Source: Candidatus Gastranaerophilales bacterium
GTDB lineage: Bacteria > Cyanobacteriota > Vampirovibrionia > Gastranaerophilales > Gastranaerophilaceae
DNA length: 35,606 nucleotides
Reading direction: 5' to 3'
Assembly (NCBI GenBank): GCA_944324245.1
Contig: CALUVO010000001.1
Location: forward strand, 1-35,606
Part shown: in pieces, positions 11,275-34,484 of the stretch
Layout: each line of letters starts with the position of its first letter
How positions within the stretch are numbered: the stretch's first letter is position 1
Made by a program: the position numbers and the translations under genes
Notes under the pieces: model-generated
The model's input: only the letters and a program-made list of their open reading frames with translations
What the model was told of the DNA's origin: nothing
Databases searched by the model: none

Positions 11275-11946
11275 CTATTTTACTGTGGTTGGATTTTTTA
11301 TCCATTCATATGCTTTAGCTGATGTTTTTGGAACAGTAACACGCCCGTCTCTGAATATTTTTACCTTATATCCCTTGCCTGCACCTGCACATGACGGGTC
11401 TATTTCAATTTCATATGTTCCTTTTTTATTTTCATCAACTAATCCTCTAAAACATACGCCGATAGAAGATTTTACATTTACATCAGTGTTGTTGTCGCAA
11501 TTTATAGCGCCTATTGTATTTATTTGTTCTGCAATATAATAGCAGACTGCATTTTCCTGCTTCAATTCACTGTCACATGTAGTATCTTCGTCATTTTTTG
11601 CTGGACACGCTGTTTTTTCTTTTCCTTTGTCTAGATATTTTATTTTTGCACTTGGCAAAGGGTTGTATGACAGGTCAAGATGCAGCTCTCCCAGACTTTC
11701 ATCAACTTGTCCGTCTGCATAAATATTCTGGTCGTATTTTGTATAGTCGTTAACAGAAGAGCGGACAATTTCTTCTATTGCATGATATGACTTTATAAAT
11801 AATACTTTATCTTTGTCAGGGTCTACACGTGTTATGGCTCTGATTAATAACCCCATAATTACGCTGATTATAAGCATCGTCAGAAGTATTTCAGCAAGTG
11901 TAAAACCTGTTTTTGGATTTATTATTTGTTTACTGTAATTTTTCAT
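11275..11946 (-). CDS. Pseudopilin-like protein with type IV prepilin signal
   Basis: The 223-residue protein has a short positive leader and a canonical prepilin site, KTG|FTLAEILLTMLII, with G14 before the cleavage point and Glu at mature position 5. One hydrophobic helix follows, then a soluble domain with several Cys (ACPAKNDEDTTCDSE, INCDNNTD, GVCFRG, PSCAG) likely paired as disulfides. It should be processed by a PilD-type peptidase and assemble in a type IV pilus or type II secretion pseudopilus. It is a clear paralogue of the product of the gene upstream (11962-12696), with matching VDPDKDKVLFIKSYHA and C-terminal AYEWIKNPTTVK. GGAG precedes the ATG. Confidence 0.85.
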   Translation of the reverse strand: MKNYSKQIINPKTGFTLAEILLTMLIISVIMGLLIRAITRVDPDKDKVLFIKSYHAIEEIVRSSVNDYTKYDQNIYADGQVDESLGELHLDLSYNPLPSAKIKYLDKGKEKTACPAKNDEDTTCDSELKQENAVCYYIAEQINTIGAINCDNNTDVNVKSSIGVCFRGLVDENKKGTYEIEIDPSCAGAGKGYKVKIFRDGRVTVPKTSAKAYEWIKNPTTVK

Positions 11947-11961
11947 TAATAATTCTCCGCC

Positions 11962-12696
11962 TTACTTAACTGTAGTTTGGTCATTCATCCATTCAAAAGC
12001 CTTAGTCTGATTAGCATTTTCGTCTTCTTCCGGTACTGTAAGCTTTCCATCAGTGGTTATATAAACTGCATACCTAAGATTTTTATCACCTGCATTGCAA
12101 GAAGGAACAATGCTAAATCTATGTATGCCATCAGCATCAGGTCCATTTAGCCAGCCAATACAAGCACCGTTTGAAAACCTCATATTAAGCCCACCTTCTT
12201 TTTTGCCATTTACTGTAATCCCGTCACCATTTTTACAATTAATTTCACCAATTGTATTCATTTGAGCAGCTGTAAAATAGCACAGAGCGTTATTTCTTGT
12301 CAGTTCTATATCACATCCTTGTTTATCAATTGTTCCATCCCCTTTTGTTACTGAAGGACATGCTGTTTTTTGTACTCCATCTTCAATCACAGTCACTCTT
12401 GCTGATGGCATAGGCGTATAACGAAAATCCAGGTGTAAGCTGCTTTTTTCCTCGTCTGACATTTTTTCGATTTCATTGTCTGCATAATAGTTAGGACTGT
12501 ATTTTGTCGGATCATTTATTGTATCCGCCATTACTGCTTCCATTGCGTGAAAAGTCTTTAGAAACAGTATTTTTTCTTTATCCGGATTTACTCTGTTTAT
12601 TGCCCGCATCATTACTGCCATCAAAACGCCTGCAATCGTCAAAGTGAGCAGTGTTTCTGCAAGTGTAAAGGCAAAAGATTTATCGCTATTTTTCAT
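11962..12696 (-). CDS. Pseudopilin-like protein, paralogue, Ala at -1
   Basis: This 244-residue product parallels the next gene in the operon: leader, FTLAETLLTLTIAGVLMAVM helix, VNPDKEKILFLKTFHAMEAVM, Cys-bearing soluble region and a C-terminal AFEWMNDQTTVK. The cleavage site reads SFA|FTLAE, with Ala9 where Gly is usual and Glu at mature +5. Ala at -1 is tolerated by some prepilin peptidases, but processing may be slower. Part of the soluble region is longer than in the paralogue (a Gly- and Asn-rich insertion). AGGAG lies nine bases before the ATG. It is the first gene of the putative four-gene minus-strand operon, 15 bases ahead of its paralogue. Confidence 0.85.
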   Translation of the reverse strand: MKNSDKSFAFTLAETLLTLTIAGVLMAVMMRAINRVNPDKEKILFLKTFHAMEAVMADTINDPTKYSPNYYADNEIEKMSDEEKSSLHLDFRYTPMPSARVTVIEDGVQKTACPSVTKGDGTIDKQGCDIELTRNNALCYFTAAQMNTIGEINCKNGDGITVNGKKEGGLNMRFSNGACIGWLNGPDADGIHRFSIVPSCNAGDKNLRYAVYITTDGKLTVPEEDENANQTKAFEWMNDQTTVK

Positions 12697-18591: not shown

Positions 18592-19812
18592 TTATTTCAT
18601 TTGTGCCAATAGTGCTTGAAGTTTGTCGGCACCTTTAGCATTTGAACCTATACTATAGCCTTCACTTAAAGTTTGTGGAGTATGAGTTGTGTAAACAACT
18701 TCTCCGTTTTTCATTAAGTCAGGTCTTATATTTGATAAATTGTTATTTGTTTTTTGCAATTGAACAGACGGCATTTTGTATACATTTCCAGAAGAAGGAA
18801 GATTCATAGCAGCCTGCTGTTTTGCAAGTGCTTCTGCCTGTTTACTTGTATATTGCGGCAACAAACCTTTTACATTTTGTTTTGCTCCGGGCAGATAGCC
18901 TTTGACTCCCTGATGAGGAATATTAAATGTTTGCTGCTCTTTCGGTAAATAATTTTCAACTGGACCTAAGTTTACTTTAGGTGATTCAACTTTTACCGGA
19001 AGATTTTGTTGTCCTGAAGCCGGAAGATAACCTGCAACCTGAGTTTGAGCAGCTGGTGTTGTGAAAACATTACCGGATGAAGGAAGATTCATAGCAGCCT
19101 GCTGTTTTGCAAGTGCTTCTGCCTGTCTGGCTGTCTTTGCAGGCAAGTAACCTGCTATATGTGTTGTCTGAGCACTCTGTGCCGGATTTGTCGGATTAAC
19201 AGGATTTGTGTTAACAGGATTTACCGGTTTATGAGTTGGAGCCGGCAAATATCCAGCTACACGGCTTGTCTGAGCACTCTGTGCCGGATTTGTAGGATTA
19301 ACAGGGTTTGTATTGACAGGATTTACCGGTTTATGAGTTGGAGCCGGCAAATATCCAGCTATACGGCTTGTCTGAGCACCCTGTGCCGGATTTGTCGGAT
19401 TAACTGGTGGTGTATTAACTGGATTTGTATTAACCGGTCTTGTCGGTTTTTTGCCTTTACGTAATGCCAGTAATAGTGCAGCTGTACCTAACGCTGTACC
19501 TAAAATGCCCAGCATTGTTGGAACTTCGTCATGTTTTTTGTGAGCAGCTATAGGTCTGGCATAATAGTTATTGTTTTTGTCATCATTTTTTATTAAATAA
19601 TCTGCATTGAATTGACCAATTCCAACACCGTTCATAGGAGTCATAAAGCCTCCCATTCCCATGCCCATATATCCGGGGTAAATACCCATGCCACAGTAAC
19701 CGCCCATTCCAGTACCTCCGCCGTAAATACCGCTGTAACTAGCTTGAACATTATACATTGGACTCATCAAGCTTTGGAAACTTGTGCTGTAATTGTCAAA
19801 ATTCATAACCAT
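18592..19812 (-). CDS. Pro/Asn-rich protein with GYLPA repeats, probable surface protein
   Basis: The 406-residue protein is not a known family. Residues 1-65 are Tyr/Gly/Met-rich (GIYGGGTGMGGYCGMGIYPG and on). One hydrophobic segment, about 98-117 (VPTMLGILGTALGTAALLLA), is followed by positive residues (LRKGKKPTRP). After it comes a low-complexity region built on NPVNPTNPAQ, and a motif GYLPA/GYLPG occurs at least six times, ending with two copies of AEALAKQQAAMNLPSSGNV. It looks like a bitopic membrane protein with an extended disordered repeat domain, perhaps binding a partner through GYLP. GGAG lies eight bases before the first ATG. Repeat copies differ, so length may vary between strains. 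Confidence 0.75.
   Translation of the reverse strand: MVMNFDNYSTSFQSLMSPMYNVQASYSGIYGGGTGMGGYCGMGIYPGYMGMGMGGFMTPMNGVGIGQFNADYLIKNDDKNNNYYARPIAAHKKHDEVPTMLGILGTALGTAALLLALRKGKKPTRPVNTNPVNTPPVNPTNPAQGAQTSRIAGYLPAPTHKPVNPVNTNPVNPTNPAQSAQTSRVAGYLPAPTHKPVNPVNTNPVNPTNPAQSAQTTHIAGYLPAKTARQAEALAKQQAAMNLPSSGNVFTTPAAQTQVAGYLPASGQQNLPVKVESPKVNLGPVENYLPKEQQTFNIPHQGVKGYLPGAKQNVKGLLPQYTSKQAEALAKQQAAMNLPSSGNVYKMPSVQLQKTNNNLSNIRPDLMKNGEVVYTTHTPQTLSEGYSIGSNAKGADKLQALLAQMK
18782..19125. repeat. 59-bp near-identical repeat pair
   Basis: Copies at 18782-18840 and 19067-19125 (offset 285 bp) differ at three positions, all near one end; the remaining stretch of over 40 bp is identical. Both are inside the 18592-19812 gene and encode the AEALAKQQAAMNLPSSGNV unit. 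Such identity at DNA level implies recent duplication or gene conversion. Confidence 0.75.
19166..19440. repeat. 102-bp tandem repeat, 2.7 copies
   Basis: Units begin at 19166, 19268 and 19370, each with GTCTGAGCA(C) followed by the GCCGGATTTG segment. The period of 102 bp encodes a 34-residue unit carrying NPVNPTNPAQ and AGYLPAP on the minus strand. The third copy decays into a shorter Thr/Asn/Val-rich stretch. Confidence 0.8.
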
Positions 19813-24808: not shown

Positions 24809-25171
24809 TTACTGAACGATTTTTATTTTAAAATTTTGTATCGGCTGATTTGTTAATAGTTTTTTCTGATTTTCAAGTGTATTTTTTATGGAGAAAATCC
24901 AGCCTGTCTTAGGATTTACAAACAGAAAAAATGCTGCCTGACTTTCAAGTATACGCTGCTGTTTGTCGATTATCAACTCTCCTTTATCAGAAAGTTCAAA
25001 AATCGTAAAAGACAACGGTGTTGTAATATTACTGTCTATGTATGCATCAAACATAGTATTTCGAAGCTTTGTTGTATCTTTTAACACCGGCTGGTCCTTA
25101 TATGTCGTACACCAGTGATAAAGCCTTGTAACTATTTTATCAATTTTATTTGTTTGATTGTTTTCGTTCAT
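24809..25171 (-). CDS. Hypothetical protein cotranslated with the GGDEF gene
   Basis: The 120-residue product shows no known domain. It is polar, with a beta-rich centre (SFTIFELSDKGELIIDKQQR, AAFFLFVNPKTGWIFSIKN). Its start lies inside the last codons of the GGDEF gene (26-base overlap, different frame), so its translation probably depends on ribosomes finishing that gene. The coupling suggests a partner or regulator of the cyclic-di-GMP protein, by inference only. Confidence 0.65.
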   Translation of the reverse strand: MNENNQTNKIDKIVTRLYHWCTTYKDQPVLKDTTKLRNTMFDAYIDSNITTPLSFTIFELSDKGELIIDKQQRILESQAAFFLFVNPKTGWIFSIKNTLENQKKLLTNQPIQNFKIKIVQ

Positions 25172-27065
25172 CCATTAATCCTATAAACTCATCAACCAGT
25201 TTTTCATTCCATTTTTTGCCTGATTCAAGTCTGATTATTTCAAGCGCTTCTTCTTTTGATCTTGCCACTCTGTAAGGACGTGCCTGTATAAGAGCAAAGT
25301 ATGCATCAATAAGCAGTATAATTTGTGATGAAACGGGTATATCTTCTCCGCTAATCTGCTTTGGATATCCGGTACCATCCCAATTTTCGTGATGGGCTTC
25401 TATTATAGGAACTATATCCGTTATTGAAGTTATCGGTTTTAATATTTTTCTGGCTGCTATAAGCGGGTGTTCTTTTATTTGTTTCTTTTCTTCCTCAGTT
25501 AAAGGCTCTTTTTTATTCAGGATTTCTTCAGGAATCATTAGTTTTCCTATGTCATAAAGAAGCATTGCTATTTTTAGCTTGTCTATATCTTCTTTCGACA
25601 TTTCCATTTTCTTGCCCAGTTCAATTGCAAGAGATACTTTTTGTTTTGTTACTCCTCGTTTATAGTGATTATTGTATGTCTGAGCAAGAGTATCTGCAAC
25701 GGAAAAAATAGTATCTTTTGTATCCGCCGCATTTATGGCTTTTAGTTTTGAAGTAACTTCTTTGGCAATTTTATCAGGTATGGGCACTTTTTGCTTTGTA
25801 AGAATATCCATAAAAGCGCCGAATGCAACTTCATGCCACTCGGCTTCATCATTTGCCGTTTTGACCAGAGTAACTCTGTTTCTTCCGTTAATTTTAGATT
25901 TGTACATTGCCTGATCTGTTAAATCAAGAAGTTCATCAAGTTTTATAGAATGTTCCGGAAATGTACCGACACCCAGACTGGCCGTAATATGACCTATTGT
26001 ATCAAGTTCTTTTGCTTCTATTGCCGCACGGATTCTTTCTGCGGCAATCATTGCACCGGAAGAATCTACGCCTGGTAAAAGAACAGAAAATTCTTCACCC
26101 CCAAGACGTGCAGGCGTATCTATAGAACGGGCATTTTTCTTTAAAATATCAGCAATTGTTTTTATTGCTAAATCTCCAAAAAAGTGTCCGTAGGTATCAT
26201 TGATTTTTTTTAGATAATCCAAATCAAGGCTTATTATAGAAAATGGTTGGTGCAGACGCATTGCACGTTCCGCTTCTTTTTGCAGTGCCTGATTAAAGTA
26301 TCTTCTGTTGTATAATTCAGTTAAAGAGTCTGTTACAGCCTCTTTTTTCAGATTTTCAAATAAATTTGCTATTGTAATAGCCATTTCTACCTGATTACCA
26401 AATAAAGTCAAAAAGTTCAATTCTTTGTCTGTAACATCTTCCCTGGGGGAAAAGACCATCATAACCCCGAATGGTTTGTTGGACGGATTTAGAGGGATAC
26501 ATATAACACTTTTGCTCACACCCAACTTATTAATTGCATCTATAACCTCCTGCTTAAAGTCATATAACAGACTATTTATAACTTCCAGATAGTTTTTGGA
26601 ATGCAATATGCTTTTTTCTTCAATTGCTTTTGATATAAGCATCTGTGAGTCATATTTCAGATGATATTCGTGTATATCAATATTTTTTTCATTTAAATAT
26701 TCAGTTAATTTTTTCAATATTGGGCTGTCTGAAAAAGCTTTTACTTTATAGTATTTTCCTTTTTCATCATCACATACCTGCAGAATTGTACTGTTTATAT
26801 AGCCCATTTCACCATGCAGGGAATTTACAAGCTTTTGCAGAACACTTGACAATGGTTCTGATGAATTCATCAGCTCCCATACGTGTTTTAAGGTTAAAAA
26901 TGCTTTGTTTGCCTGATCTAACTCCTGTGTTCTTTGCACAATCTCTTTTTCAAGCGCCAGATTTCGTTCATAAATTTCTATGAATTCTTTTTTATTACTT
27001 GAAATACTGTATTCTATTTCATTTACTTTTTGTGTATATTCTTTGAATTTTTTAAATAAATCCAT
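25146..27065 (-). CDS. GAF-GGDEF-degenerate HD-GYP signalling protein
   Basis: The 639-residue protein has a coiled-coil lead (1-60), a GAF-like sensor domain (about 65-235), a GGDEF domain with GGEEF (322-326) and an RxxD inhibitory site (R313-D316) five residues earlier, and a C-terminal HD-GYP-like domain (about 455-620). The diguanylate cyclase looks active, making cyclic di-GMP, with product feedback. The HD-GYP part has HHENWDGTGYP (558-568) and H533, but the first metal His is V472 and the HD pair is Y504-D505. Loss of two metal ligands suggests it cannot hydrolyse cyclic di-GMP and may bind or sense instead. No membrane segments, so cytoplasmic. It overlaps the small gene at 24809-25171. 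Confidence 0.9.
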   Translation of the reverse strand: MDLFKKFKEYTQKVNEIEYSISSNKKEFIEIYERNLALEKEIVQRTQELDQANKAFLTLKHVWELMNSSEPLSSVLQKLVNSLHGEMGYINSTILQVCDDEKGKYYKVKAFSDSPILKKLTEYLNEKNIDIHEYHLKYDSQMLISKAIEEKSILHSKNYLEVINSLLYDFKQEVIDAINKLGVSKSVICIPLNPSNKPFGVMMVFSPREDVTDKELNFLTLFGNQVEMAITIANLFENLKKEAVTDSLTELYNRRYFNQALQKEAERAMRLHQPFSIISLDLDYLKKINDTYGHFFGDLAIKTIADILKKNARSIDTPARLGGEEFSVLLPGVDSSGAMIAAERIRAAIEAKELDTIGHITASLGVGTFPEHSIKLDELLDLTDQAMYKSKINGRNRVTLVKTANDEAEWHEVAFGAFMDILTKQKVPIPDKIAKEVTSKLKAINAADTKDTIFSVADTLAQTYNNHYKRGVTKQKVSLAIELGKKMEMSKEDIDKLKIAMLLYDIGKLMIPEEILNKKEPLTEEEKKQIKEHPLIAARKILKPITSITDIVPIIEAHHENWDGTGYPKQISGEDIPVSSQIILLIDAYFALIQARPYRVARSKEEALEIIRLESGKKWNEKLVDEFIGLMDERKQSNK

Positions 27066-29374: not shown

Positions 29375-31054
29375 ATGACAAAGGTATTGTTGATATCTGA
29401 TAATGAAAAACAAAATGAACAAATAACTCAAGCTCTGGCAAAATCTTCTTTTGCTGTTATTTGTTCTTCTGATGAAGCTGCAGCATTGGGTTATGTCCAA
29501 AAAGGACTTGTTTCTCTTGTAATAATAGATGAAGAGCTAAAAGTACCGGATTCTGCAATTTTATGCAAAAAACTGCATGCTGCAGCAATTAAAGAAAATG
29601 TTGTAATAATTGCACTGGTAAATCAAAAAACCGAAAATTTGGAGCTTTTAAAACACACTAATGCATATATCACCAAACCTGTTAATGAAATAGTTCTTGC
29701 AGCCTGTGTAAGTTCTAATTTAAAGCTAAAAAGAGCTGTTGATACTCTAACATTAAATAATAGTGAACTGGCAAAGAGTCTTTATCAGCTTGATGTTTTA
29801 TATAATACTTCCACGCAGCTGGCAGGGTCATTAGATAAGCAAAAGCTCATAAATATTATGATAGACGGTCTTGAAAAAAGCTTAAGCTTTTCATTGTCTT
29901 CTACCCTTGTATTCAATGATGAGCACAATATAGAGCTTATTATAAATTCATTATACGGAATTTCACCAAGATTGGAACATTCTTTAAAATTACGCGCTAT
30001 ATTGAGTTATCGTGCACTTTTTGATAAAAAAAGAGTGCCTTATGAACTTAATGTAAACGATATAAAGGTTATAAAAAACATTAAGCACCATTTAGAAGAG
30101 TATGATCTTAATATTTTAAAGTTTGATAATCTTTTTGCACCGATAAATGTGGGCGAAAAATTTTTCGGTCATATTGAGGTTTTTAGGGAGACGGATTTTT
30201 CTCAAGAGGATACAACCTGTTTTCAAACTCTTGCCAGACAGGTCTCGCTTCCTCTGGAAAATGCTGCTTTGTATGAAGAAATAAAAAATACAAATACAAA
30301 ACTCGAGAAACTGGAAAGACTAAAATCAGAGTTTATTTCTATTGTTTCTCATGAATTAAGAACTCCTTTGACGGCAATAAAAAATTCTCTTGAAATCTGT
30401 TTGAGCGGTAAAGCCGGAGATGTAAGCTCCATAATGGACAAGTTTTTGAATATGGCGTCACGTAACGTAACAAGATTGTCAGGTATAATTAATGATTTGC
30501 TTGATTTATCAAAGGTGGAAGCCGGAAAAATGGATTTTAAATTTGAAAAAACAAATATTAATGCGCCGGTTGAATTTATAAAAAATACATTTGAAAATGT
30601 CGCAAGAGAAAAGAATATAGAATTAATTCTGGATAAAGACAAAAATATAAGTGATACCTATATTGATAACCAGAGAATAGAGCAGGTAGTTTCAAATCTT
30701 ATTTCAAATGCAATAAAATTTACAAATGAAGGCGGTAAAATAACAGTTAAAACAGAAAATATCAAACAGTCTGATATCGATAAAACAAAACTTTTCGATA
30801 TAGAAAAACCTGTATTTTATGACAATTATGTAAAAGTTTCTGTTTCAGACAGCGGAATAGGTATAGCTCAGGAGGATTTGAAAAAAGTATTTGACCAGTT
30901 CCAGCAGATAGAAAATTCTTTGAACAGGAAAAACGGCGGTACAGGACTCGGGATGCCTATTGCAAAACAGTTAATCGAAGCTCATAAAGGCTTTATCTGG
31001 GTAGAAAGTGAATTGAACAGAGGAACTACATTCTCTTTTGTTATTCCTGTTTGA
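29375..31054 (+). CDS. Receiver-GAF-histidine kinase
   Basis: The 559-residue cytoplasmic protein begins with a receiver domain (1-120): phosphoacceptor D52 and K101 are present, but the acidic pair reads ISDN, with one Asp replaced by Asn. A GAF-like region follows (about 145-300), then the kinase: H-box SHELRTPL with H326, N-box NLISNAIKF with N445, DSGIGI and GGTGLGM. The kinase core looks active. It probably passes phosphate to the CheY-like protein encoded 430 bases downstream. It has no membrane segments, so the signal is internal. It lacks a clear ribosome binding site. It overlaps the next gene by 4 bases (TTGA). Confidence 0.9.
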   Translation: MTKVLLISDNEKQNEQITQALAKSSFAVICSSDEAAALGYVQKGLVSLVIIDEELKVPDSAILCKKLHAAAIKENVVIIALVNQKTENLELLKHTNAYITKPVNEIVLAACVSSNLKLKRAVDTLTLNNSELAKSLYQLDVLYNTSTQLAGSLDKQKLINIMIDGLEKSLSFSLSSTLVFNDEHNIELIINSLYGISPRLEHSLKLRAILSYRALFDKKRVPYELNVNDIKVIKNIKHHLEEYDLNILKFDNLFAPINVGEKFFGHIEVFRETDFSQEDTTCFQTLARQVSLPLENAALYEEIKNTNTKLEKLERLKSEFISIVSHELRTPLTAIKNSLEICLSGKAGDVSSIMDKFLNMASRNVTRLSGIINDLLDLSKVEAGKMDFKFEKTNINAPVEFIKNTFENVAREKNIELILDKDKNISDTYIDNQRIEQVVSNLISNAIKFTNEGGKITVKTENIKQSDIDKTKLFDIEKPVFYDNYVKVSVSDSGIGIAQEDLKKVFDQFQQIENSLNRKNGGTGLGMPIAKQLIEAHKGFIWVESELNRGTTFSFVIPV

Positions 31055-31476
31055 GTGAAAGAGAAAAATTCGTTTCTGATATGCAAAAAGAAATTTCAAA
31101 AGCAAAAGCCTGCTCCCAGCATGTACTGGTTGTATTGATACAGGAAGAGCTAAATCAGCGTTATTCCTTTATTAACGATGTAATGGAAGAAAAAATTTCA
31201 ATAATAAGAAAAACATCTAATACAAAAGAAGTTTGTTATACTGAAAACAATAAAAAATATCTGGAAATTATGATACCGGAAGCTGACAAATTTGCACAGG
31301 GCTTTATAGAAAAGAAAATAGAGAGCATTATAACAACCGAAACCGATGAAACAAATGCTAAAAAGTATGATATATTGTATTCAACGGCGATTTTTCCTGA
31401 TAATGGAGAAGATACGGATTCTTTGTGCGATTATTTAACATCGGCTTTAAAAAAGAACACAATGGCGGAGGTGTGA
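31051..31476 (+). CDS. Small protein with degenerate GGDEF-like tail
   Basis: The 141-residue product sits between kinase and response regulator genes. It lacks a GGDEF motif, but the C-terminal ILYSTAIFPDNGEDTDSL with the helix after it resembles the last strand and helix of GGDEF domains (typically 'GIA.FP.DG.D...LL..AD.AL'). It might be a shrunken, non-catalytic relative, or this likeness may be chance. The start is TTG, overlapping the previous stop (TTGA) and so coupled; ATG at 31081 is an alternative with a weak GAAAGAG upstream. No known function. Confidence 0.6.
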   Translation: MSEREKFVSDMQKEISKAKACSQHVLVVLIQEELNQRYSFINDVMEEKISIIRKTSNTKEVCYTENNKKYLEIMIPEADKFAQGFIEKKIESIITTETDETNAKKYDILYSTAIFPDNGEDTDSLCDYLTSALKKNTMAEV

Positions 31477-31481
31477 ATTAA

Positions 31482-31862
31482 ATGAGCAGTGAAAGCAACG
31501 GCAAAAAAATTCTTATAGTAGACGATGAGCAGGATATTGTAGAAACTCTGAAATTTATGCTTGAAGCTCAAGGCTATGAATGTTTTTGCGCTTACGATGG
31601 TGAAAACGGGCTTAATATGGCTAAAGAAATTATGCCTGATTTAATGATTCTTGATGTTATGATGCCCAAAATTAACGGCTACAAAATCAGCAGGCTTTTA
31701 AAATATGATAATAAATATAAGGATATTCCAATTATTATGGTAACTGCACGCTCACAGGAAGATGATAAATTAATCGGACAGGAAACCGGCGTAAACGAAT
31801 ATATAACAAAGCCTTTTGAACTTGATGAAGTTATTGCAAAGGTGAATGAATATCTGGCATAA
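31482..31862 (+). CDS. CheY-like response regulator
   Basis: The 126-residue protein is a single receiver domain: acidic pair D14-D15, phosphoacceptor D58 in LMILDVMMPKINGY, T88 in MVTAR and K110 in ITKPF. All are intact. It has no output domain, so it acts by binding a partner. GGAGG lies upstream of the ATG. It comes directly after the kinase and its small companion, and directly before the PilB-like ATPase gene, a natural candidate for its target. Confidence 0.93.
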   Translation: MSSESNGKKILIVDDEQDIVETLKFMLEAQGYECFCAYDGENGLNMAKEIMPDLMILDVMMPKINGYKISRLLKYDNKYKDIPIIMVTARSQEDDKLIGQETGVNEYITKPFELDEVIAKVNEYLA

Positions 31863-31904
31863 TTGGAACGATTATCAGAGTTTTTCGTCCGGAGAGTTGA
31901 AAAA

Positions 31905-33299
31905 ATGGAGTTTGTAAGAAATAAAACTTTAGAAAAATTAAAATATGATCTGGTTCGTGACAACCTTATAAAATACGAAGATCTGGAAACTGCAGAGCAG
32001 GTTGCACAAGTGCAGCATGTAAATGTAGGACAGGTTTTGATATCTTCCGGATTAATAGAAGAAGAAAAACTGCTTAAGTTCTTAGAGAGCAAACTTCATA
32101 TTCCGTATGTAAATCTCGATGATTATTCTCTGGATAAAAAGTGCCTCGGTTACATTAATTTAAATAATGCCCAGAAATATAAAGTTATTCCTCTTTTTGA
32201 GATAGAAGGGATTTTGACTGTTGCTATGTCAGATCCTCTTGATTTGTTTGCTATAGATAAAATTGTAGAGGATGCAAAATGTGAAATAGAACCTGTAATT
32301 TCATCAGAAAATGCTATTTTAAAAAAGATTGAGGAGTATTATACAAGCGGAAGTTCAGTAGGACAGATTTTTATCGATGAAGATAAACCAAAATATGACT
32401 GGAGAGATGTCCTAAATGATGAAAATGTTTCTCAGGGGTTGTCTGATGAACATATTCAAAAACTAATACGTGCAATTTTGAAACAGGCTATATCTGATGA
32501 TATTCACGAACTGTTTTTTGAACATATTCCAGAAGGTTTGAGCGTAACTTTTAGAAAAGAAGCACAAAATATTTCTACGGGGGATATTCCTTTAATTCTT
32601 GCTGCGCCTTTTATTGCAAGATTAAAAACCCTTTCCAATCTTGATCCGACAGTTTCAGAACTGCCGCAGCTTGGTAAATTGAGCTTTAAAGTGGATGATA
32701 TGGCGCTTATTGCTAGTATCTCTGCATTTCCTACCATACATGGTGAAAGAATTTCCATAAAAATATACAAGCCGCCTAAAAAATTGTGTGAAACAGCTTT
32801 AGATACAAAAAAAATAAATACAATCCATAATGCATTAAAAGTACCGGGAATTATACTTGTATGCGGCTCCGGTCTTTGCGGTAAAACTCATATGATTTAT
32901 TCTATTTTATCAGATATTGCTGATGATTCCCGTAATATCATGACAATAGAGTCAATAACAAAATATAATCTGGAAAATATAAATCAGTGCGAGTTGAACG
33001 AGCATATAGGTTTCAACCTTGATAAGGCAATGAGGTTTATAGAATTCCAATCTCCCGATATTCTTTATTTTGAAGGCATTAACACAAAAGAGGGTCTGGA
33101 TTATTTTACATCTCTTGTATTGAAAAATAAGACTCTGATTACAGAGTTTTTGGCTGAAAATATGGCTGATTTGATGAAAAAGATGGCGCTAAACGAGTTT
33201 TCCATGTTTAAATCTCTCTTAACTTGCTTAATATTTCTTCACAATAAAGACAGTATTGAAGTTTTCGATAAAAAGGCTTTAGAAAAATATTTTGGCTAG
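31905..33299 (+). CDS. Degenerate GspE/PilB-like ATPase with MshEN-type N-domain
   Basis: The protein (464 residues from this start) has an N-terminal T2SSE_N/MshEN-like region (LISSGLIEEEKLLKFLESK, IPYVNLDDY) and a C-terminal secretion/type IV pilus ATPase core. ASDIHIE appears as SDDIHELFFE and Walker A as GSGLCGKT. The Asp box TIEDP is altered to TIESITKY, Walker B VGEIRD to YFEGIN, and the His box to TEFLAEN. The Cys-rich zinc motif of true PilB is absent. It may bind ATP but hydrolysis is doubtful, and its role may be regulatory. GGAGAG eight bases before the ATG at 31905 favours this start over the TTG at 31863. Confidence 0.8.
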   Translation: MEFVRNKTLEKLKYDLVRDNLIKYEDLETAEQVAQVQHVNVGQVLISSGLIEEEKLLKFLESKLHIPYVNLDDYSLDKKCLGYINLNNAQKYKVIPLFEIEGILTVAMSDPLDLFAIDKIVEDAKCEIEPVISSENAILKKIEEYYTSGSSVGQIFIDEDKPKYDWRDVLNDENVSQGLSDEHIQKLIRAILKQAISDDIHELFFEHIPEGLSVTFRKEAQNISTGDIPLILAAPFIARLKTLSNLDPTVSELPQLGKLSFKVDDMALIASISAFPTIHGERISIKIYKPPKKLCETALDTKKINTIHNALKVPGIILVCGSGLCGKTHMIYSILSDIADDSRNIMTIESITKYNLENINQCELNEHIGFNLDKAMRFIEFQSPDILYFEGINTKEGLDYFTSLVLKNKTLITEFLAENMADLMKKMALNEFSMFKSLLTCLIFLHNKDSIEVFDKKALEKYFG

Positions 33300-33368
33300 A
33301 ATTTAGAAAAATTTTTATTAACAAAATGTAAAAATATTTTAACAATCCTTGAAATTCGGTAAATTCGT

Positions 33369-33397
33369 TGAAAAAAATGTTTTTTATTATTATATAG
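33369..33397 (+). promoter_or_regulatory. Predicted promoter of the 33427 gene
   Basis: TTGAAA (33369-33374) and TATATA (33392-33397) are 17 bases apart in the 127-base gap after the ATPase gene. The unknown protein and the HD-domain protein can thus be expressed separately from the kinase operon. Confidence 0.5.
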
Positions 33398-33426
33398 GAA
33401 ACCGAAGGTAAAAAAGGAATATTATT

Positions 33427-33915
33427 TTGAGTGGCGAAAATTTAAAAATCCCACAATTAAATATAAGTTTATCATCAACAGGTGCTGATTCTGCAGCTGG
33501 TGAACCTGCTTTTACATCAGCAAAACCAATGTTGTTTAATACAGGTCTGATAGACGCACGTGAATATGCTATTAACGGACAGGAACAGAATACTGTATCT
33601 AATGTCAATGTTAGTCTTGAGCAAGCTCTTTTTGAGTCAAAGCTCAAAACTCAGCAAGCACAGGTAAAACCTGAAGAATTGCCTGCAAATATCAGAACAG
33701 GCGCATTAGCTGCAATAGGAAATTATTTAAATAGAATAAAATATGGTGTAGACAAATTAGATACAGCTATTGATGATCGTGCGCTGGATGTACTTCAAAG
33801 GTACAGTATTCCTGAGTCTGATTTAAAAACAATGTATGAATCAAACCCGAGATTGCAGGCAATCATTTATCAAATGCTGCAAGCGGGGGCAAATTACGGA
33901 ATTCAAATGGGATAG
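33427..33915 (+). CDS. Hypothetical protein upstream of the HD-domain gene
   Basis: The 162-residue product is unrecognised. Its first half is Ser-, Ala- and Gly-rich and probably disordered (IPQLNISLSSTGADSAAGEP). The second half is helical (TGALAAIGNYLNRIKYGVDK onwards) and ends AGANYGIQMG. There is no signal peptide or membrane segment. The start is TTG with AAGGA about ten bases upstream. The HD-domain gene follows 20 bases later, so they are likely cotranscribed. Confidence 0.65.
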   Translation: MSGENLKIPQLNISLSSTGADSAAGEPAFTSAKPMLFNTGLIDAREYAINGQEQNTVSNVNVSLEQALFESKLKTQQAQVKPEELPANIRTGALAAIGNYLNRIKYGVDKLDTAIDDRALDVLQRYSIPESDLKTMYESNPRLQAIIYQMLQAGANYGIQMG

Positions 33916-33935
33916 TATTACAGGGGATATTTGGA

Positions 33936-34484
33936 ATGAAAACAAAAGATGTATTGCATTATGAAAATTTAAAAACTATAAAATATACACATCTGGCTAC
34001 GACAATTGTTTATGCTCGTGCTATAGCAGAAGTTCTTGGGTATTCAAAAGAACAGATTCATGTCATAGAAGTTGGGGCATCTCTTCATGATATAGGCAAA
34101 TCATTTATCCCGCCGTCAATTTTAAACAAGAAGGGAAAATTAACAAAAGAAGAACGTGAGATTATCAATTATCACTCTGTAATCGGCTATGAAATTTTAA
34201 AATCCGCAGGCTATGGTGTTAATGTTGCGGAAATTGCAAGAGACCATCACAATCCGCTGTCAAGAAATCCGATGGCTCAAATTGTAAGAGCTGCTGATAT
34301 TTATTCTGCAATGAGAGAAGAACGTTCTTACAAAAAGGCAAAGACACATGAAGAAGCAATGGAGGTTTTGAAATCCGCAAGGGTGCCTCAAAAGATTCTT
34401 GATGCACTGGATAAAAAATACGGTAAAAAATATACAGCAACAAATCCTATTCAAGGCTTTTCAGTTCGCACTGCAGTTGCTTAA
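33936..34484 (+). CDS. HD-domain phosphohydrolase related to HD-GYP, lacking GYP
   Basis: The 182-residue protein has HD-family metal residues: H19, HD at H51-D52 in LHDIGKSFIPPSIL, H80 in NYHS, and H104-H105 in DHHN. The surrounding pattern (HDIGK, IPPSILNKKGKLT, ADIYSAMREERSYK) is that of HD-GYP phosphodiesterases. The GYP loop after the double His is replaced by PLSRNP, so cyclic di-GMP hydrolysis is uncertain although the metal site looks whole. This is the opposite pattern to the 25146 protein, which keeps GYP but has lost metal ligands. AGGGGAT precedes the ATG. Its last 38 bases overlap the end of the TPR gene on the other strand. Confidence 0.85.
   Translation: MKTKDVLHYENLKTIKYTHLATTIVYARAIAEVLGYSKEQIHVIEVGASLHDIGKSFIPPSILNKKGKLTKEEREIINYHSVIGYEILKSAGYGVNVAEIARDHHNPLSRNPMAQIVRAADIYSAMREERSYKKAKTHEEAMEVLKSARVPQKILDALDKKYGKKYTATNPIQGFSVRTAVA

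Follow-up and report, generated by a model that had tools for sequence, protein, structure and literature searches.

A histidine kinase, a stand-alone receiver and a PilB-derived pseudo-ATPase form a conserved three-gene unit in Gastranaerophilales

Three genes stay together across the order

In genomes of the Gastranaerophilales, an order of gut-dwelling relatives of the cyanobacteria, genes for a histidine kinase (HK), a stand-alone receiver (REC) and an ATPase derived from the pilus motor PilB form a unit that we describe here from one stretch of DNA and its counterparts in relatives. The stretch, called the window below, is the 35,606-nucleotide contig CALUVO010000001.1 (C1) of a 2.0-Mb draft genome (GCA_944324245.1, 85% complete) of a Candidatus Gastranaerophilales bacterium, and positions 29375-34484 of it hold six open reading frames (ORFs), all on the + strand. 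The real unit is three of these genes, the kinase, the receiver and the ATPase, and judged by its residues the ATPase is a pseudoenzyme that has lost what hydrolysis and the power stroke require. We lean, with modest confidence, toward an order-specific two-component module in which a nucleotide-binding pseudo-motor would act as the partner. The parts on which this proposal depends are as follows (coordinates, strand, feature, evidence).

29375..31054, +, histidine kinase, degenerate receiver-GAF-HisKA-HATPase_c (Pfam HisKA 64.4 bits, HATPase_c 98.7 bits)
31482..31862, +, stand-alone CheY-like receiver (Pfam Response_reg 97.7 bits; five functional residues)
31905..33299, +, PilB-derived putative pseudo-ATPase, MshEN-like domain plus degenerate T2SSE (Pfam, alignment, model, tree)
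32865..32888, +, retained P-loop GSGLCGKT in the pseudo-ATPase (sequence, alignment)

Of the 192 genomes of the order, 187 have an orthologue of the ATPase, covering seven families, and kinase orthologues are likewise found in 187 of 192; the closest named relatives of the window's ATPase belong to metagenome-assembled genomes of Candidatus Gastranaerophilales, the order named in the preliminary description. Across 48 loci drawn from different genera and families, the ATPase has an HK beside it in 38 and a REC in 41, and no other neighbor cluster recurs in more than 6, which leaves HK-REC-ATPase as the sole widely recurring arrangement. A second set of 80 loci, taken from GTDB genomes, in part repeats species of the first set. 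Among those with room on the contig, 71 of 76 have the receiver immediately upstream of the ATPase, mostly within 10 nucleotides, and 60 of 69 have the kinase as well. No receiver-ATPase fusions were seen. Those immediate neighbors that we examined have housekeeping roles and no relation to the module (among them EPSP synthase, a coaBC-type flavoprotein, mgtE and a carbon-nitrogen hydrolase). As the three genes remain linked amid shuffled surroundings, their association goes beyond a mere relic of gene order. A preliminary description of this DNA had presented the six ORFs as one signaling locus; they do lie on one strand as it listed them, and HK-REC-ATPase is conserved together in relatives, but conservation across loci is limited to these three genes and a six-gene operon is therefore rejected.

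Outside the order but within the same class we found only ordinary PilB, with under 30% identity to the ATPase, and no HK or REC stands beside PilB in 14 such loci. Kinase orthologues were also absent from the 26 genomes searched outside the order. Three genomes of the order (G086, G146 and G191) lack both HK and ATPase (p about 2e-5). We do not claim this co-loss as functional linkage because the upstream neighbor gene is missing as well in G086 and G191, because linked genes vanish together with a contig, and because incompleteness of 2% would by itself account for about 3 of 181 genomes. These genomes have pili without the module, which missing contigs explain equally well, and they are not used as evidence.

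By its residues the PilB-derived protein is a pseudoenzyme

The ATPase ORF (31863-33299) extends upstream to a TTG at 31863, whereas comparison with homologues favors the ATG at 31905 (MEFVRNKT) as the start. The protein matches Pfam MshEN (62.8 bits) and T2SSE (90.8 bits), and its best NCBIfam match is TIGR02538, the PilB model, at 189.1 bits against a cut-off of 675.65. It shares with PilB the order of an MshEN-like domain followed by T2SSE, the fold and the position of the P-loop; a structure model (predicted local distance difference test score (pLDDT) 84.3, predicted template modeling score 0.62) still has the PilB/GspE fold. It differs from PilB in its lost catalytic residues, its cut C-terminal domain and the lack of linkage to pilC.

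Residues were counted in 49 members and in 17 PilB controls, each of them intact at every position compared. The Asp-box Asp, kept in 17/17 controls, is replaced in 49/49 members, and the Gly of GEIRD is Glu in all 49. The first Arg-finger position has changed from R to F in 47/49 and the second is R in only 1, both His-box His residues are replaced, and the chain after the His box has a median length of about 46 residues compared with about 150 in PilB, so that most of the C-terminal domain is gone in nearly all members. The catalytic Glu of Walker B is Gly in 27/49 (the window's family) and is still Glu in 13/49, chiefly in families f2-f4. The P-loop Lys is retained in 45/49; the P-loop has decayed in three f6 genomes and in G004 (loci L106, L107, L108 and L102), where the gene and its kinase and receiver neighbors remain. 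The earlier reading of this protein, Walker A kept and the Asp, Walker B and His boxes lost, thus stands for Walker A and for the Asp and His boxes, while loss of Walker B depends on the lineage.

The first domain shows a similar change, a feature absent from the preliminary description. In MshEN receptors, cyclic di-GMP (c-di-GMP) is recognized through two RLG..LL..G..(4)L...L..Q motifs with an Arg and a Gln in each half (PMC5013675). The domain in the pseudo-ATPase has the same fold and position, but its key Arg is replaced by Lys or Asn and its Gln by Ala, Ser, Lys or Asn, and the c-di-GMP motif model NF053729 scores it at 24.3 bits against a cut-off of 38. We therefore rejected a role as a c-di-GMP receptor through MshEN. 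Elsewhere in the window, a GAF-GGDEF-HD-GYP protein (25146-27065, - strand) has both motifs intact by eye (GGEEF, HHENWDGTGYP), and thus c-di-GMP signaling is probably alive in this genome.

The altered protein is nevertheless strongly constrained. Replacement motifs such as TIESI.KY, RFIEFQSPDI.Y.E and ITEFLA.N are fixed, and 35 alignment columns are invariant across families. The ratio of nonsynonymous to synonymous substitution (dN/dS) between close relatives is about 0.046 for the pseudo-ATPase and 0.036 for the receiver, both rough values as most pairs approach saturation at synonymous sites. The pseudo-ATPase is under strong purifying selection. In a maximum-likelihood tree, 36 sampled pseudo-ATPases form one branch apart from PilB and PilT (SH-aLRT, an approximate likelihood ratio test, 100; stem 3.2 changes per column). 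The protein does not group with active PilB, and with its catalytic residues also lost we rejected the view that it is an ordinary PilB.

Kinase core and stand-alone receiver keep their functional residues

The domains of the kinase follow one another as receiver-GAF-HisKA-HATPase_c, with a weak match for GAF that stays under the Pfam cut-off. Its H, N, G1 and G2 residues are intact in 39/39 members. Its own N-terminal receiver, in contrast, is degenerate, with neither the acid pair nor the Lys conserved, which the preliminary description had not noted. No transmembrane family was matched in the kinase (family matches only; topology was not predicted). The stand-alone receiver keeps D, D, D, T and K in 42/42 members and is the sole receiver of the module with all five functional residues. 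It is a CheY-like single domain with no output domain, and its earlier designation as a CheY is borne out.

Two further features of the window lie between kinase and receiver.

31046..31056, +, apparent one-base deletion site splitting kinase and GGDEF-fold domain (DNA alignment with genus members)
31051..31476, +, GGDEF-fold domain without GGDEF motif, kinase C-terminus in relatives (continuous ORF in relatives; model)

In relatives (the genus members examined and other families) the kinase ORF runs on through the GGDEF-fold domain to a length of about 690-700 amino acids. Compared with the relatives aligned, the window is one base shorter in a short T run at about 31050; as a result the kinase stops at the TGA at 31052 and the domain becomes an overlapping ORF of its own. 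Among those relatives the split is seen in the window genome only, and the frameshift may be a real deletion or an assembly error. An overlapping TTG could still serve as the start of the downstream ORF. An AlphaFold2 model of the domain (pLDDT 88.6) finds as its best PDB matches GGDEF domains throughout (E 1e-5), and the GG(D/E)EF active-site motif is absent in all 17 aligned members. What had been called a small GGDEF-like remnant is thus a degenerate GGDEF fold, but a separate gene is rejected since the domain is the C-terminus of the kinase and continuous with it in relatives. The domain evolves faster than the rest of the module (median dN/dS 0.23) and many genera have no such domain, their kinase ending at about 560 amino acids, which together mark the domain as a dispensable relic.

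An intact kinase core and an intact stand-alone receiver thus occur beside a degenerate ATPase, GGDEF-fold domain and kinase receiver. The earlier suggestion that several parts keep an enzyme's fold without its catalytic residues holds for the ATPase and the GGDEF-fold domain, and a regulatory assembly made in part of retired enzymes fits the ATPase, GGDEF-fold domain and kinase receiver, which are degenerate yet kept across the order.

The module persists in genomes without pilus motors

Motors of type IV pili, Tad pili and type II secretion all use T2SSE and T2SSF proteins. All but a few genomes of the order have PilB or PilT. In three genomes, G107, G164 and G176 (97, 97 and 99% complete), no T2SSE protein other than the pseudo-ATPase scores above cut-off and no T2SSF platform genes were found. 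It is very unlikely that three or more unlinked loci are missing by chance in each of them, and their clade has apparently lost type IV pili completely. Kinase and pseudo-ATPase are still neighbors in each of the three, and the receiver is also present in both pilus-less loci inspected closely (L124 and L139). A fourth genome, G017, has the same motor-less pattern but at 82% completeness is too incomplete to count. Since the module is kept where no other T2SSE or T2SSF protein is found, it does not depend on pilus, Tad or type II secretion motors. This speaks against control of type IV pili or secretion, as suggested earlier, being its general function. The module was never next to pilus genes in the 48 loci examined.

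Two prepilin-like proteins are encoded side by side in the window (11275-11946 and 11962-12696, - strand); they have GFTLAEILLT-type N-termini and no pilus motor gene nearby.

Proposed mechanism and alternative readings

In two-component systems the kinase autophosphorylates and then transfers the phosphate to an intact receiver. We propose that the kinase would sense an internal signal through its GAF domain, autophosphorylate on His and pass the phosphate to the adjacent stand-alone receiver. As this receiver has no output domain, its output would be a protein contact, and because the pseudo-PilB is encoded adjacent to it and co-conserved with it, the product of the next gene is its natural and most likely partner. 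The pseudo-PilB, which in most lineages probably still binds nucleotide at its P-loop, would act as a nucleotide-gated scaffold or switch and not as a motor, with an output that need not be confined to type IV pili. We infer the contact of receiver with pseudo-PilB, the direction in which it works and the final output. A close precedent is Myxococcus PilB, whose signaling to the Dif CheA/CheY pathway can be separated from ATP hydrolysis (PMC5544727). An acting receiver has precedent in cyanobacteria, where PATAN-type response regulators bind PilB1 (PMC12288463). This supports an output through pseudo-PilB. The module shares with the PATAN/PixG system receiver proteins that act on the PilB family (here by a presumed contact), and differs from it in having no PATAN domain and in not needing an active PilB.

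Several observations weigh against this proposal. The pilus-less genomes come from two sister genera, with G107 and G176 sisters in the tree, and their pilus loss may be a single event. In a few f3 genomes the ATPase does not adjoin the receiver. Finally, f6 and G004 have no P-loop left but still have the module, which indicates that nucleotide binding is not required everywhere.

One alternative is that the module regulates type IV pili, with the pseudo-PilB joining or competing with PilB/PilT motors in the manner of TfpB or PilU and the receiver switching it. The PilB ancestry of the pseudo-ATPase (TIGR02538, 189 bits, its best NCBIfam match), the presence of PilB/PilT in nearly all module-bearing genomes and the binding of PilB1 by cyanobacterial PATAN-type regulators (PMC12288463) all agree with it. 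The accessory pilus ATPases TfpB and PilU resemble the pseudo-ATPase as extra PilB/PilT-family proteins beside a main motor (PMC11656802). The pseudo-ATPase, however, scores only 97.7 bits with the TfpB model against a cut-off of 850, and G107, G164 and G176 retain it although they have neither a pilus motor nor a T2SSF platform. The absence of pilus genes beside the module in all 48 loci also speaks against pilus regulation, and a protein that lacks its Arg fingers and the greater part of its C-terminal domain is less likely to mix into active hexamers. We consider pilus regulation unlikely.

The signal could also run the other way, with pseudo-PilB sensing nucleotide or another ligand and controlling the kinase, and with the receiver acting as a phosphate sink or elsewhere. 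Myxococcus PilB regulates exopolysaccharide via the Dif CheA/CheY pathway in a role separable from pilus assembly and ATP hydrolysis; the Dif kinase lies downstream of it, and PilB is suggested to signal in its nucleotide-free form (PMC5544727). This precedent keeps an input role alive, and retention of the P-loop in 45/49 members is consistent with it. Both systems tie a PilB protein to a kinase and a CheY-like receiver (PMC5544727), but in Myxococcus PilB is a working motor that has an additional role, and pili belong to the pathway, while the protein described here appears to be a dead, dedicated paralogue that shares one predicted operon with its kinase and receiver. It is the receiver, and not the kinase, that is most tightly linked to the ATPase, and f6 and G004 lost the P-loop yet kept the module. 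An input role is in our judgment distinctly doubtful.

That the genes are decaying, functionless pseudogenes of an old pilus cluster, as motif loss and the split kinase ORF of the window might suggest, is most improbable and already contradicted by the dN/dS of about 0.046, the 35 columns invariant across families, the fixed replacement motifs and the separate clade with its long stem (3.2 changes per column).

We found no description of an HK-REC-pseudo-PilB module, nor of pseudoenzymes in the secretion/pilus motor family, in the open-access papers searched. The domains are known; what we call new is a dead motor fixed as a signaling partner throughout an order, apparently an old motor turned into a component of signaling. 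Whether a pilus motor ATPase has turned permanently into a dead two-component partner, independent of pili throughout the order and with a receiver target or sensor not described before, we regard as evenly balanced. If true, the motor fold can be reused for signaling alone. Interest in the module comes from its near-universal presence in an uncultured gut order, a constraint about that of the receiver and its retention after pilus loss. It also offers a clean test of the idea from Myxococcus that PilB signals by its nucleotide state and not by motor work.

Neighboring genes and other features of the locus

Two ORFs downstream of the pseudo-ATPase complete the set of six.

33427..33915, +, TTG-start ORF, genus-level neighbor, outside the core (comparison of loci)
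33936..34484, +, HD-domain protein without GYP, genus-level neighbor, outside the core (Pfam HD 60.3 bits; distribution)

These two ORFs are one fused gene in loci L113 and L114 and lie near the module in close relatives only. The HD domain is present and the GYP segment that would follow the HH pair is missing in the translation. An HD protein without GYP was thus correctly recognized, but it and the TTG-start protein are genus-level neighbors and not members of the conserved unit. Scanning for promoters and terminators gave matches no more frequent than in shuffled sequence.

At locus L129 (4657-6424) flhB and a sigma factor gene come immediately after the module. A flagellar link is not general, as different genes occupy this place in the related locus L133. 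The window also encodes a low-complexity protein (18592-19812, - strand) with repeats rich in PVNPTNPAQ.

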